64,000 nucleotides of DNA from Rossellomorea sp. y25 (GTDB lineage Bacteria > Bacillota > Bacilli > Bacillales > Bacillaceae_B), in NCBI RefSeq assembly GCF_038049935.1, contig NZ_CP145886.1, forward strand, positions 2,178,501-2,242,500, in the 5' to 3' direction. A model generated the notes under the pieces. It was not told the DNA's origin and did no database searches. It was given only the letters and a program-made list of their open reading frames with translations. The position numbers and the translations under genes were made by a program. Of the stretch, positions 1,496 through 39,127 are shown piece by piece; positions within the stretch are counted from its first letter, which is position 1; the number at the start of each line of letters is the position of its first letter.

Positions 1496-1750
1496 AAAAT
1501 CCCTGCTGAATAAATCAGCAGGGACGAAAAAGATCGCGGTACCACCCTTGTTGTAAGCAAATTGCCTACCACTCGAATTGATAACGGACAATAACCGTCT
1601 TGTTCCACTACAGAACAAGAAGCTCAAGAAACGTAATTCATGATTTTCCTATGTACTAGTTCCCAGCACCACTAGCTCTCTATAACAGGGAGGAGATCAC
1701 TACTTCAAATCCATCACAGCTCTTCACAAATATGTATGATCAAGATGCTT
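1496..1750 (-). ncRNA. Tyrosine T-box leader of phhA
   Basis: The antiterminator signature AAGGGTGGTACCGCG lies at 1549-1535 (minus strand). It is followed by a terminator hairpin whose arms are TCCCTGCTGA and TCAGCAGGGA with a run of T at 1500-1496. In Stem I the specifier loop reads GAA-T-TAC, with TAC at 1635-1633; the tyrS leader near 38991 has the same GAATTAC context, and both have AGTAGTGA on the opposite side of the loop. TAC is a tyrosine codon, so uncharged tRNA-Tyr is the expected ligand. The specifier was assigned by alignment by eye of the two leaders, not by folding. Confidence 0.85.
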
Positions 1751-2813: not shown

Positions 2814-3290
2814 TTATAAATCCCATTTCTTCTGAACGAATGTAAGCATAGACTCACGGTATCTTCTAACGATGGAATTCATGACCAAATAGGTAAAGGT
2901 ACCAAATAAAGGAATATTAATGAACATCCCAATAAAGAACGCCTTCCCAATTTGCAGACCATAGCCTACTGCTTCACTTGCGGAGTCAACAGTTTCAACA
3001 GAAGGAACGACTACATTAATAGGGTAGAATAGATGGCCTACAAGAAAATTCAGATAGAAAAATAAAGGGAACGCCCAAATCAAGGAGACTCCACCTACTA
3101 ATCCAGCGAATGGATTTCCTTTAAAAATCTTTGCACACGCCGTTGATATGACTGGACCTATACCAAAGGAAGGAACAAAATTCACTAATAAACCGACCGT
3201 GAATCCTAATGCAATACTGTGAGCATTATCTTTTAGACGTAAAAGTTTTAAAGTAAGGCATTTGAATTCTCTAAGCTTTTTTCTAATCAT
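2814..3290 (-). CDS. DUF2062 membrane protein
   Basis: The 158-residue product has the DUF2062 pattern: a short basic N-terminus followed by HSIALGFTVGLLVNFVPSFGIGP, a Gly/Pro-rich re-entrant-looking segment, and two further hydrophobic segments (around 75-100 and 125-148). DUF2062 proteins are integral membrane proteins of unknown function, sometimes linked to glycosyltransferases and cell-envelope genes. The stop codon directly abuts the stop of the convergent pseudogene. It is monocistronic, divergent from pssA. Confidence 0.75.
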   Translation of the reverse strand: MIRKKLREFKCLTLKLLRLKDNAHSIALGFTVGLLVNFVPSFGIGPVISTACAKIFKGNPFAGLVGGVSLIWAFPLFFYLNFLVGHLFYPINVVVPSVETVDSASEAVGYGLQIGKAFFIGMFINIPLFGTFTYLVMNSIVRRYRESMLTFVQKKWDL

Positions 3291-3476: not shown

Positions 3477-4151
3477 ATGAAACTAACGAAAAAAATACCC
3501 AATATGGTCACGTTGGGAAATCTGTATTGCGGTTTCTTATCAATTGGGTTTGCCGCAAGCGGACAATTTAAAAACGCAGCAATACTAATTATCATTGGCA
3601 TGATGCTAGATAGTATGGACGGCAGATTGGCGAGAATGCTGCAAGCTGATAGTGTACTAGGAAAGGAATTAGATTCATTAGCTGATATTGTCACGTTTGG
3701 AGTCGCACCTTCCTTTCTTGTGTATTATACATATTTCTTTCAATTTGGATTATTAGGGTTTATCGTAGCAGGGTTATTTCCATTATTCGGTGCTTATCGA
3801 CTGGCGAGATTTAATACCAGTCCGCCGAAATCTTCTCTTCATTATTTCGTAGGTGTCCCGATTACGGCAGCAGGTGGAATCCTTGCGATTCTCACCCTTT
3901 TTGGAAACTTTATTCCAAATATCGTGACAACGGTCATTTTCACAGCAATGTGTTTTCTCATGGTGAGCCGTATACGAATCCCCAGTCTCAAGGAAGTGCC
4001 TTTACCTAAATACGGAACAATCGTGACGCTCTTCATTGGAGCATTACTATTCGTCATTTACAAAGGGACTTATGAGGAGTTTCCCTATTTGATTTACATC
4101 GCCACACCACTGTATATCGCATATCTGACGTATCGATTTATTAAGAGATAA
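3477..4151 (+). CDS. pssA: CDP-diacylglycerol--serine O-phosphatidyltransferase
   Basis: Membrane enzyme that joins serine to CDP-diacylglycerol to make phosphatidylserine, the precursor of phosphatidylethanolamine. The CDP-alcohol phosphotransferase signature is complete at about residues 48-71: DGRLAR, eight residues, G, three, D, three, D (DGRLARMLQADSVLGKELD then SLAD). The 224 residues contain six or so hydrophobic segments, normal for the small Bacillus-type PssA. ATG 3477 follows GCGAGGATAAAAG. In B. subtilis pssA is followed by ybfM and psd; here a strong terminator comes straight after, so psd is not linked. Confidence in family is high, and serine as substrate is inferred from similarity to Bacillus PssA. 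Confidence 0.88.
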   Translation: MKLTKKIPNMVTLGNLYCGFLSIGFAASGQFKNAAILIIIGMMLDSMDGRLARMLQADSVLGKELDSLADIVTFGVAPSFLVYYTYFFQFGLLGFIVAGLFPLFGAYRLARFNTSPPKSSLHYFVGVPITAAGGILAILTLFGNFIPNIVTTVIFTAMCFLMVSRIRIPSLKEVPLPKYGTIVTLFIGALLFVIYKGTYEEFPYLIYIATPLYIAYLTYRFIKR

Positions 4152-25243: not shown

Positions 25244-25393
25244 GGGAACAACTCCTTTAAGATATTTAGAAGATTATACCATATGTTGTGTTTTTAGGGA
25301 GGAGTCAAAGTAAGGCTGTTTATCATAATGTGATTCAACCGCATTTGTTTTATAATAGAATAAAATGAAGGAGACCTTAAAGGAGGTGGTGAC

Positions 25394-25498
25394 ATGGTAA
25401 TGAGAACAATCTTGCCAGAGTCCCAAGCGTCTCATGCAAAGCCTATTATTAGAAAGGCGATACTTTGCATGGGGTGGACGCTGACTGATCGCCCTTAA
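25394..25498 (+). CDS. 34-codon leader peptide ORF upstream of the CD3324-family gene
   Basis: ATG 25394 sits 6 bases after a near-perfect AAAGGAGGTGGTG ribosome binding site, stronger than that of most real genes here. It encodes a 34-residue basic peptide (starts MVMRTILPESQASHAKP, ends LTDRP). The DNA inside it forms one arm set of alternative hairpins with sequence downstream, and the next gene's ribosome binding site is masked by another hairpin. This is the layout of drug-inducible translational attenuators. No homologue is recalled, so the peptide is probably a sensor whose sequence matters for ribosome stalling. Confidence is for the ORF being translated. Confidence 0.6.
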   Translation: MVMRTILPESQASHAKPIIRKAILCMGWTLTDRP

Positions 25499-25559
25499 AG
25501 TACATTTCTAGTAAGTCGGCTTTGCACCTTATTTACTTTATTTATCAGAAAATAAGGGG
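25433..25559 (+). promoter_or_regulatory. Candidate translational attenuator with mutually exclusive hairpins
   Basis: Segment A, CATGCAAAGCC (25433-25443), can pair with B, CTTTGCATG (25463-25471, 9 bp), or with C, GGCTTTGCA (25518-25526, 9 bp), not both. Immediately after C, CCTTATTT (25527-25534) pairs with AAATAAGG (25550-25557), which contains the AAGGGG ribosome binding site of the next gene. A ribosome held on the leader ORF would cover A or B and change which pairing forms. Pairings were found by eye; energies not computed. Confidence 0.55.
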
Positions 25560-25568
25560 CTGACTGAA

Positions 25569-25835
25569 ATGAAATATGTAAAAGCGGAGAGTGTTTTACC
25601 ACAATCCCTTCTTGTTGAAATCCAGAAATATGTACAGGGGGAAACCCTTTATATACCTAAACCTAAGGTGAAATACCGAAAATGGGGCAGCCGTTCTGGT
25701 AGTAGAAAAGCAATTGATGAACGAAATGTTAAGATCCAAGAGGATTTTTTGAATGGAAAGACGATTCAAGAATTAGCCGCTCATCATTATCTTTCACCAG
25801 AAACAATTAAGAAAATCGTGTACAAAAAGCGCTGA
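25569..25835 (+). CDS. CD3324-family / Mor-like small DNA-binding protein
   Basis: 88 residues: KYVKAESVLPQSLLVEIQKYVQGETLYIPK, then KWGSRSGSRKAIDERNVKIQEDFLNGKTIQELAAHHYLSPETIKKIVYKKR, a C-terminal helix-turn-helix of the Mor transcription activator type. The CD3324 family is widespread in Firmicutes without a defined role. Here it lies behind a leader ORF and a ribosome-binding-site-masking hairpin, and before genes for a FusB-type EF-G-binding protein and an RlmN-type methyltransferase, so a regulator responding to ribosome inhibition is a plausible inference. A terminator overlaps its stop codon. Confidence 0.72.
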   Translation: MKYVKAESVLPQSLLVEIQKYVQGETLYIPKPKVKYRKWGSRSGSRKAIDERNVKIQEDFLNGKTIQELAAHHYLSPETIKKIVYKKR

Positions 25836-25857
25836 TGTTTATGTCAGTGCTTTTTTA
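25826..25857 (+). terminator. Terminator overlapping the CD3324-family stop codon
   Basis: AAGCGCTGA / TCAGTGCTT (one G-T pair) followed by TTTTTA. Confidence 0.65.
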
Positions 25858-25929
25858 TGTATTGTTTGATTCTGAACCAAACTCAACATATCTTTCTGCC
25901 ATGAATCGTTATATATTATTAATGAGGTT

Positions 25930-25985
25930 GCACGGAATACCCGTGCTCCTTGACTCATCTTGAACATACCATTTAAGATGATGAG
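25930..25985 (+). promoter_or_regulatory. Two hairpins in the fusB-like 5' leader
   Basis: GCACGG-AATAC-CCGTGC at 25930-25946, then CATCTT / AAGATG at 25956-25980 just before the ribosome binding site GGAG. There is no T-run, so they may affect translation or mRNA stability. A regulatory role is only suggested by the FusB context. Confidence 0.35.
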
Positions 25986-26010
25986 ACAAATGTTTCTAGG
26001 AGCGATTAAT

Positions 26011-26649
26011 ATGGAACCATTTATTCGAAATGATCAATATAATTTCATTGCGTATCAGACTCAGGTGCTGATCAATGGATATTCAACAGTGAATGATCTA
26101 GGTGTACTTCAAGCGTTGAAAGGACTTGTGAAAGATAAGGTGACAAATTTGTTTGATGGGTTGTCTCAAGCTCAACAGGACATACTTGATCCAATCGGGG
26201 ATATCAGTGATACTGACCACGCGGAGGATTTATTAATTGGATTAAAGCCTTATGTCATTCCATTTCCATCTGTTTCTGATGCCTCATTGAAAAAGTTATT
26301 CCCGAAAGTGAAAAAGCTAAAGACACCTGATTGGGCAAATATCGATTTCAGGGATCTCTCCTATTTAGGCTGGAATGATTACGGACAGGAGCGAAAATAT
26401 ATCGTTGCTGAGTATGAAGGTAAATTAAATGGATTCAAAGGTACCTTCAAAAGCAGCAGCAAAAAAGGAATTTGTACGATTTGCAATAGCTTCGGAAGCA
26501 TCGGGTTTTATATGTCTGAATCGAAAACGTCATCTCAAGGAACCTTTGTGAAGAAAGGAAATTACATCTGCCAGGATAGTGATGAGTGTAATGAAAAGCT
26601 CAAAGACAAAGAGAAATTGGATGATTTCATTCAAAGGATCAATCATTAG
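26011..26649 (+). CDS. FusB/FusC-family elongation factor G-binding protein
   Basis: 212 residues, the same length as FusB. FusB family features: an N-terminal helical domain (MEPFIRNDQYNFIAYQTQVLING), the linking YVIPFPSVSDASLKKLFPKVKKLKTPDW, YLGWNDYGQERKYIVAEYEGKLNGFKGTFKSSSKKGICTICN, and a four-cysteine zinc finger, Cys155, Cys158, Cys187 and Cys193 (CTIC...YICQDSDEC). FusB proteins bind EF-G and release it from the ribosome when fusidic acid has trapped it. The upstream codons of the frame are ignored because TAGGAGCGATTAAT places ATG 26011. Chromosomal Bacillus homologues give intrinsic low-level tolerance; whether this one does is untested. Confidence 0.85.
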   Translation: MEPFIRNDQYNFIAYQTQVLINGYSTVNDLGVLQALKGLVKDKVTNLFDGLSQAQQDILDPIGDISDTDHAEDLLIGLKPYVIPFPSVSDASLKKLFPKVKKLKTPDWANIDFRDLSYLGWNDYGQERKYIVAEYEGKLNGFKGTFKSSSKKGICTICNSFGSIGFYMSESKTSSQGTFVKKGNYICQDSDECNEKLKDKEKLDDFIQRINH

Positions 26650-26811
26650 AAGGATGCGCTGGGCAGAGTCTCGGCGTATTTTTTCATTGTATTTATACTA
26701 TATTACGGAATTCCAATTCTTCTCAACACTTATAAATCCCTTGAAACATTGCCATACTTTAAGTAGTATAGATAAGTAGAAAATTGTAGAGTTTCGAAAT
26801 GAGGGTTTTAA

Positions 26812-27882
26812 ATGGAAAAGAAATCCATATACGGATTAACATTAGATCAACTGACAACATGGCTGGTCGAGCACGGTCAAAAGAAGTTCCGTGCGGCTCA
26901 GGTATGGGATTGGTTATATAAAAAGAGAGTGACAAACTTTACCGATATGAAGAATCTGAACGCTGACTGTGTACAGTTGCTCGACGATCACTTCTATCTT
27001 CATACACTCACTCAAGAGGTTAAACAGGAATCTAAGGACGGCACAATCAAATTCTTGTTCAAACTTGAGGATGGTAACCTAATAGAAACAGTTCTTATGC
27101 GTTTCAATTACGGACTGAGTGTATGTGTGACGACTCAAGTCGGATGCAACATCGGTTGTACATTCTGTGCGAGTGGACTACTCAAGAAGAACCGGGACCT
27201 ATCAAGCGGTGAAATTGTTGAACAAATCATGAACGTCCAACATCACTTGGATGAAGCAGGAAATGGAGAACGAGTCAGTCATATCGTTGTAATGGGAATT
27301 GGTGAACCATTCGATAACTACGATAACATGATGGACTTCTTCCGGGTGGTGAATGACCAAAAAGGTCTTTCCATCGGAGCGCGTCATATCACCGTATCAA
27401 CAAGTGGTCTGGCAGATAAGATTTACAAATTTGCCGACGAAAACATTCAAATCAACCTGGCCGTTTCCTTGCACGCACCAAACAATGAATTGCGTACGAA
27501 GATTATGAAGATCAACCGTGCATACCCGTTAGAGAAATTAATGCCAGCTATTGATTACTATTTAGAAAAAACAAATCGACGCATTACCTTTGAGTATATC
27601 TTGTTAAGTGATGTGAATGATCATAAAGAAGAAGCCATTCAGCTGGCCAAACTGCTGAAAAACAAGCGTCACCTTTCTTATGTGAACTTGATACCTTATA
27701 ACCCGGTTGACGAACACAACCAATATCAAAGAAGTACGAAAGAAGCGATTGTCGAATTCTACGGTACATTACTTGAACATGGAATCAACTGTGGGGTCCG
27801 AGTGGAACAAGGAACGGACATTGATGCAGCTTGCGGTCAATTAAGAAGTAAGCAAATTAAAAAAGACAAAGTGAAATCTTAA
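26812..27882 (+). CDS. rlmN: RlmN-type 23S rRNA (A2503-C2) methyltransferase
   Basis: A 356-residue radical SAM enzyme. CNIGCTFC provides the 4Fe-4S cysteines (Cys112, Cys116, Cys119), and the C-terminal [10 protein letters not shown] holds the methyl-carrying Cys341. The whole sequence tracks B. subtilis RlmN ([52 protein letters not shown]). RlmN methylates A2503 of 23S rRNA and A37 of some tRNAs; the related Cfr methylates C8 and gives multidrug resistance, but this sequence is clearly closer to RlmN. The usual RlmN gene of Bacillus lies near prpC/prkC; this one does not, so it may be a second copy. The RlmN-typical CTIRREQG is CGVRVEQG here. Confidence 0.85.
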
Positions 27883-38852: not shown

Positions 38853-39127
38853 TTGTATTTTATGGCATTATTCTGTAAAATAAATGAAAATTCATAATCT
38901 TACATGTCATGATAGGAACGAGTAGTGACTTATCTCCCTGGTGAAGAGAGCTGATGGCTGGTGGGAATCAGTACAAAGATAAGCGCGAATTACCTCCTTA
39001 AACATTCTCTGTGAACCATTAGTAGCAGAGAACGGCCGGTCCGTTATCCGTATGAAGTGGAAGAGAAATCTTCAATTAGGGTGGTACCGCGTTAACCACG
39101 TCCCTTTTTTTAGGGGCGTGGTTTTTT
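38853..39127 (+). ncRNA. Tyrosine T-box leader of the tyrS-like gene, with promoter
   Basis: Promoter -35 TTGTAT (38853-38858), 17 bp, -10 TAAAAT (38876-38881). Stem I has AGTAGTGA, AGAGAGCTGATGG and GGTGGGAATC, and the specifier loop reads GAATTAC with TAC at 38991-38993 (tyrosine). The T-box AGGGTGGTACCGCG is at 39078-39091. Terminator ACGTCCC / GGGGCGT with T-run ends at 39127. The phhA leader shares the specifier context. Confidence 0.88.

Follow-up and report, generated by a model that had tools for sequence, protein, structure and literature searches.

A covarying leader RNA in front of CD3324-family and FusB-type genes of Bacillales is probably a ribosome-responsive translational attenuator

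A leader RNA was found in a stretch of 64,000 nucleotides from Rossellomorea sp. y25 (the window), in front of a small CD3324-family gene and a FusB/FBP-type EF-G-binding gene, and is likely to act as a ribosome-responsive translational attenuator. The leader element is real and was confirmed at the level of single bases. Covariation among related leaders, collected with R1, a covariance model built in this analysis for the leader, establishes four helices, two alternative partners for one strand (segment A) and a hidden ribosome binding site (RBS); the link between the position of ribosomes and opening of the RBS, like the inducer, is what we infer. The attenuator reading is supported by an open reading frame (ORF) led by a Shine-Dalgarno (SD) sequence that runs into A, by the co-occurrence of R1 with the FusB domain PF07299 and by joint decay of the whole unit at one locus (L312). 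Against it stand FusB-type genes without R1 in 68 of 158 genomes and a leader reading frame that is not universal.

The first-pass annotation had described a leader ORF followed by three complementary segments (A, B and C) that can pair only two at a time and by a hairpin over the RBS of the next gene, and all of these positions are exact in the sequence (Table 1). It had proposed RNA folding and conservation of the pairing in relatives as checks, with a lack of compensatory changes as one part of the refuting outcome. Folding of 25430-25580 gave a minimum free energy of -42.6 kcal/mol (z -3.33), which 1 of 200 shuffled sequences equalled, so that the region is more stable than chance, and compensatory changes were found in all four helices. 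The segments A, B and C are near-invariant in the first 30 sequences, so that covariation cannot be judged there, and their letters change with compensation in divergent members.

In an alignment of 100 rows from 99 sources picked for diversity (A3), cells changed on both sides of a pair were counted and compared with 500 shuffles, which ignore relatedness: A:B was paired in 98.2% with 37 double-change cells against a shuffled mean of 5.8, A:C in 98.9% (14 against 1.6), the RBS hairpin D:E in 95.2% (29 against 4.8) and H2, a helix of GGCGAT with ATCGCC that the earlier reading had missed, in 96.1% (27 against 3.5), with 0 of 500 shuffles as high for any of them; the model used for aligning has A:B and D:E in its structure, so that their counts lean towards that model, and A:C and H2 are absent from it. 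Controls with one strand slid along paired far less than the true helices. The A:C control slid by -2 gave 16 double-change cells, more than the 14 observed, yet was paired in 30.7% against 98.9%.

As A is common to both helices, A:B and A:C exclude each other. The proposed pairing of three segments two at a time thus held for A with B or with C, whereas B does not pair with C; the pairing part of the proposed erm/cat-type architecture, two mutually exclusive helices that both covary, and the hidden RBS, for which D:E covaries, were borne out. H2 is compatible with A:B, possibly as an H-type pseudoknot, and with A:C, which is nested around it, and the loops between the helices vary in both sequence and length. 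Two further pairings were tried and rejected: a B extension with the anti-RBS strand (79.4 vs 79.1% in shuffles) and, in the R1 class, a lower stem of C with the RBS flank (64.7% paired, the shuffled level).

Table 1. Leader, genes and signals of the locus in the window (positions count from the first nucleotide of the window).
Feature	Positions	Strand	Basis
Probable -10 of the leader promoter (TATAAT)	25351-25356	+	sequence; no good -35; absent from the promoter scan list
Leader ORF Shine-Dalgarno AAGGAGGTG	25380-25388	+	sequence
Leader ORF, 34 codons, HAKP frame across A	25394-25498	+	ORF list
Segment A CATGCAAAGCC	25433-25443	+	covarying helices A:B and A:C
H2 5' strand GGCGAT	25456-25461	+	covaries with 25488-25493
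Segment B CTTTGCATG	25463-25471	+	covaries with A
H2 3' strand ATCGCC	25488-25493	+	covaries with 25456-25461
Segment C GGCTTTGCA	25518-25526	+	covaries with A
D, anti-RBS strand CCTTATTT	25527-25534	+	covaries with E
E, CD3324 RBS AAATAAGGGG; first 8 bases (AAATAAGG, 25550-25557) pair with D	25550-25559	+	covariation
CD3324-family gene, small HTH protein, Mor-like C-terminus	25569-25835	+	NF040785 and weak Pfam Mor match
Intrinsic terminator-like hairpin in the CD3324-FusB gap	25824-25855	+	hairpin scan; conserved in relatives
FusB/FBP-type EF-G-binding gene (start taken from its own SD; listed ORF 25960-26649)	26011-26649	+	PF07299 95.1 bits, PF16571 37 bits
Terminator-like hairpin 3' of FusB and 5' of rlmN	26649-26684	+	hairpin scan
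rlmN	26812-27882		sole rlmN of the genome

Two terminator-like hairpins were found in the hairpin scan against 1.2 expected from shuffles, so that conservation of the terminator among relatives is the better evidence. The controlled gene had been placed next to FusB- and RlmN-type genes. This stands for the adjoining FusB-type gene, but rlmN is the sole copy in the genome (a second match is 25% identical) and has a terminator-like hairpin ahead of it, and it is therefore regarded as a neighbour outside the unit. An inverted repeat, GCACGGAATACCCGTGC, lies in 25836-26010 directly 5' of a promoter-like TTGACT-18-TAAGAT of FusB, and the nearest relatives are similar. A scan of the window against Rfam 15 gave no family over its gathering score at the leader and only two T-box leaders (RF00230) elsewhere, at 38900-39108 (+) and 1517-1726 (-); the segment 25250-25650 gave two matches, both far under the gathering score.

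The SD-led leader ORF was confirmed in the window, where its SD is near-perfect, and recurs in relatives: 221 of 235 leaders have such an ORF running into A and the other 14 lack a qualifying start, the start taken in each leader being the one with the best SD. A 9-base match of the SD to the 16S complement is present in 63 of the 221, and the distance from start to A is 33-42 nt in 191 and exactly 39 in 128 of them. Given the footprint size of a ribosome, 33-42 nt is just past one that is held on the first codons. Across A, 182 of the 235 leaders are read in the HAKP frame, 36 in an SCKA-type frame and 3 in the third frame, and for at least three of the 36 (L026, L034, L224) the HAKP frame offers a TTG start as well. 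The ORF of SCKA-frame leaders ends at A or at most 6 nt after it in 28 of 36, directly after A in 19. Segment B, downstream of A, is read in several frames or lies beyond the stop codon, and 46 of 212 classed leaders have an ORF that ends ahead of B, which a leader ribosome then cannot cover. Judged from the sequences, translation over A appears to be conserved, and one peptide is not. With two frames in use across A there is no single conserved stalling peptide, and both a universal HAKP arrest peptide and the proposed erm/cat-like conserved stalling peptide were given up; open-licence full text in PMC yielded no mention of a HAKP arrest peptide. Some erm/cat-like systems work without a conserved stalling peptide.

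Sequence searches indicate that the leader is a family and not a single locus. It is carried by 30 of 30 fetched CD3324 loci (49 places were listed), CD3324 being present in 32 of 61 genomes. R1 matched 139 of 397 genomes and 50 of 135 genera of the order, 97 of 398 genomes and 28 of 146 genera of the class and, at E <=0.01, 15 of 398 genomes of the phylum, comprising 10 of its own class, one outside the class at 5e-6 and four weak matches. Viral contigs gave no leader. A pattern scan of named genomes gave at least 118 stretches. The 80 pattern loci among the matches listed, 79 of them confirmed by R1, belong nearly all to Bacillales-type genera (Bacillus, Paenibacillus, Cohnella, Brevibacillus, Metabacillus, Sporosarcina and others), with one in a Clostridia-type MAG (L108) and one chance match (L073). 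Altogether 256 leaders were located, of which 242 were unique and 235 remained after seven had been set aside: the chance match, the weak phylum matches L219-L222, and L235 and L303, in which the locator missed a segment though R1 matches. One locus (L258) carries two leader copies, at 3001-3143 and 3766-3908, 765 nt apart. Upstream of CD3324 in L344 and L351 an R1-like arm layout in other letters (CTCCATGCAGAG with CTGCATGGAG) was seen by eye, together with a possible leader that reads HAES or HAKP; R1 lists no match in L344 and reaches E 0.11 in L351.

When the first gene is taken as the first one at most 330 nt from A, it is CD3324 behind 162 of the 235 leaders, a FusB-type EF-G-binding gene behind 60, a beta-lactamase-fold hydrolase behind five (fold assigned from L068) and another gene behind eight; CD3324 stands between the leader and a FusB-type gene in 115 of 235. 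Among 398 genomes of the class, 158 have PF07299 and 97 have R1, both being present in 90, R1 alone in seven and FusB alone in 68 (Fisher p 9e-37). At least 85 of the 97 leader-bearing genomes have a same-strand FusB no more than 2.5 kb downstream, and in 42 of these the leader match and the FusB domain match are less than 60 nt apart. On 20 fetched FusB regions that were R1-negative, R1 gave one weak match (L316, E 0.0044). The 16 of these that were examined (L330-L333 stand outside) include four with other SD-led short ORFs, one found by script (L328) and three by eye (L326, L327, L329), the start chosen being other than that of FusB in a few of the 16 (L314 and L316 at least). In L326-L329 these short ORFs upstream of FusB come with hairpins and are unrelated to R1. 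In L312 a deletion fuses the start of CD3324 to the remains of FusB and the leader ORF stops within A (by eye), with R1 at 143 bits. An intact rlmN lies behind this decayed leader-CD3324-FusB stretch (L312:700-1500).

The product of the next gene had been called a CD3324/Mor-like regulator. Membership in the CD3324 family is clear, with 107.8 bits against NF040785 (cut-off 65), but the match to Pfam Mor (PF08765), at 22 bits, is under the cut-off of 24.9, which makes CD3324 weakly similar to the Mor/C activators of Mu and its function a predicted one. A PDB search with the CD3324 family profile returned mainly HTH fragments (best E 1.5e-6, a chain named CAP REPEAT) and listed no Mor chain. By a strict scan, which was used instead of an earlier loose one that had been positive in 268 of 341 control windows, a terminator directly follows CD3324 in 92 of 115 leader-CD3324-FusB loci vs 2 of 456 control windows taken from FusB coding regions. 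CD3324 therefore probably acts on FusB in trans. Of 104 intergenic regions, 22 have the motif TTYTNANTCNTT behind the terminator, where shuffles average 0.4; the region upstream of the leader has it in 1 of 104 cases, and none of the 60 leader-FusB loci does. These counts are no independent test, since the motif was first spotted by eye in the same sequences; it is a candidate activator site in a minority of loci.

Eight CD3324 paralogs in relatives are without R1 but are preceded by a different leader ORF close to an A-like segment; this ORF is of the MGKYPNLKIFTR type in seven (three translated, the rest by eye) and reads MREPFTS in L305. In L304 and L306-L311, a second leader class, the stop of this ORF touches the A-like segment. 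The paralog leaders fold with C against the SD side in 6 of 8 and with C against A in L307 and L309, and in the three scanned the gene after CD3324 encodes a GNAT protein (L304, L308) or a beta-lactamase-fold protein (L305). More distant CD3324 genes adjoin those for an ABC-F protein (L335:1967-3244) and a Vat-like acetyltransferase (L344:806-1411; 235 bits, cut-off 300), both matches being under the equivalog cut-offs, a methyltransferase (L334) and a beta-lactamase-fold hydrolase (L338); the leaders of L335 and L344 are strongly folded (z -4.8 and -4.7). Distant CD3324 also adjoins unrelated genes, and of the 23 full-length loci that the phylum search gave for CD3324, most lie beside genes that do not resemble resistance genes, as judged mostly by eye and with Pfam for five. 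Regions upstream of CD3324 had z < -2 in 21 of 31 cases vs 17 of 155 control windows, or in 17 of 27 once four with R1 were removed; z was above -2 in 10 of 31. A description of this leader or of CD3324 was not found in the open-licence full text of PMC.

Opening of the RBS was computed for 95 of the 100 A3 rows, those gapped in A, B, C or the SD being dropped. The free RNA favours A:C (median pAC 1.00), and A:B is more stable in 8 of 95. The median cost of opening is 7.0 kcal/mol with A:C, 8.2 with A:B and 7.9 with A masked; between A:C and A:B the median difference is -0.87 kcal/mol, A:C being the cheaper in 59 of 95 rows and the costlier in 30. Strong opening was seen in none of the folds computed for these rows, including those with A or B masked.

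In the mechanism proposed here, leader ribosomes would decide whether A is free, and the fold would depend on ribosomes reaching A. Inhibitors that halt ribosomes early would alter the fold and allow more translation of CD3324 or FusB, and from the gene controlled an EF-G arrest of the fusidic acid kind would be the obvious candidate inducer. Under the polarity that we favour, steady traffic over A, or A:B, would leave C free and the RBS shut, and a failure of ribosomes to reach A would permit A:C, with which the RBS opens more easily. This polarity is suggested by the preference of the free RNA for A:C and by the somewhat lower opening cost, and its chances are about even. It needs pairing of C with the RBS flank, which is without covariation support in the R1 class (64.7%, as in shuffles), and A:B is without a clear job in it. 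The FusB promoter would in turn be activated by CD3324, which is followed by a terminator at most CD3324-FusB loci, and a FusB gene that comes first would be under direct control of the leader.

The classical polarity of erm, cat and pUB101 fusB would instead make A:C beside D:E the closed resting state, with a drug-stalled ribosome on A opening the RBS. A:C is indeed the preferred state of the free RNA, ribosomes would cross A in 221 of 235 leaders and many SCKA-frame ORFs end at or just after A (28 of 36), and the same logic is reported for plasmid fusB in the accessible part of PMC12493156. Masking A, however, leaves the RBS closed (7.9 against 7.0 kcal/mol with A:C), and no strand able to release the RBS emerged: the B extension pairs with the anti-RBS strand at the shuffled level. 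This leaves the classical polarity rather unlikely. It is improbable that control runs mainly through transcript stability or transcription and not through initiation at the CD3324 or FusB RBS: the RBS is open in no computed state and terminator-like leaders were seen by eye at some other CD3324 genes (L342, L352), but the hairpin scan gave no terminator-like hairpin between the leader promoter and CD3324 in the window, and the RBS hairpin D:E itself covaries. A ligand- or protein-binding structured RNA with an incidental ORF might be read from the very high conservation of A, B and C in the first 30 loci and from the possible pseudoknot. This is more improbable still, as the SD-led ORF is kept in 221 of 235 leaders at a narrow distance to A, the letters of A, B and C change with compensation, the loops vary in sequence and length, and no Rfam riboswitch matched.

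As far as the accessible parts of the publications go, fusidic acid induces fusB of S. aureus plasmids via leader attenuation (PMC12008383, PMC3352095, PMC12493156), with induction by leader ribosomes stalled by the drug (PMC12008383, PMC12493156), leader peptides have been used for typing (PMC12561750), and a 2025 review calls the regulation of FusB homologs unknown. The suggestion of a sensor not yet described is partly right: fusidic acid is already known to act through attenuation on the plasmid-borne fusB of S. aureus, but that leader has no match to R1. The pUB101-type fusB likewise has a short leader ORF with alternative hairpins and encodes a protein of the same family (the FusB of the window is 34.7% identical over 92% of the query); unlike R1 leaders, its leader peptide MLKDITYLKLLDLEYKMLCS has neither HAKP nor SCKA, and it is a resistance-plasmid gene without CD3324 in the stretch viewed. 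Homology of the two leaders was rejected: with filters off, the best R1 hit in the plasmid fusB locus (L180) has E 0.91 and lies inside fusB, and none lies in its leader. The leader attenuators of erm and cat and the bmrCD and yxjB leaders of B. subtilis share with the R1 leader a leader ORF, competing hairpins and genes for resistance to ribosome-targeting drugs. Unlike all of these, the R1 leader has no conserved stalling peptide, its target is often a regulator gene, and its segment A has two alternative partners next to a constant third helix.

The genes behind CD3324 (those for FusB, an ABC-F protein, a Vat-like acetyltransferase, GNAT, a methyltransferase and beta-lactamase-fold hydrolases) allow a tentative wider reading, possible though somewhat doubtful, in which CD3324 proteins are small Mor-type regulators found throughout the phylum behind interchangeable leader attenuators, the leader serving as sensor, CD3324 as amplifier and the next gene as effector. 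The swappable sensors would then be the HAKP/SCKA class, the KYPNLK class in paralogs and further classes elsewhere. If true, this would be a cascade from leader to activator that responds to failing ribosomes and has no dedicated stalling peptide. Against the wider reading stand the many full-length CD3324 loci beside genes unlike resistance genes and the 10 of 31 upstream regions with z above -2. The R1 leader itself gives many FusB homologs a concrete RNA element, carried by about a third of the genomes sampled in one order, and CD3324, a protein family for which open-licence PMC full text yielded no description, is now tied to ribosome-protection and drug-modifying genes.
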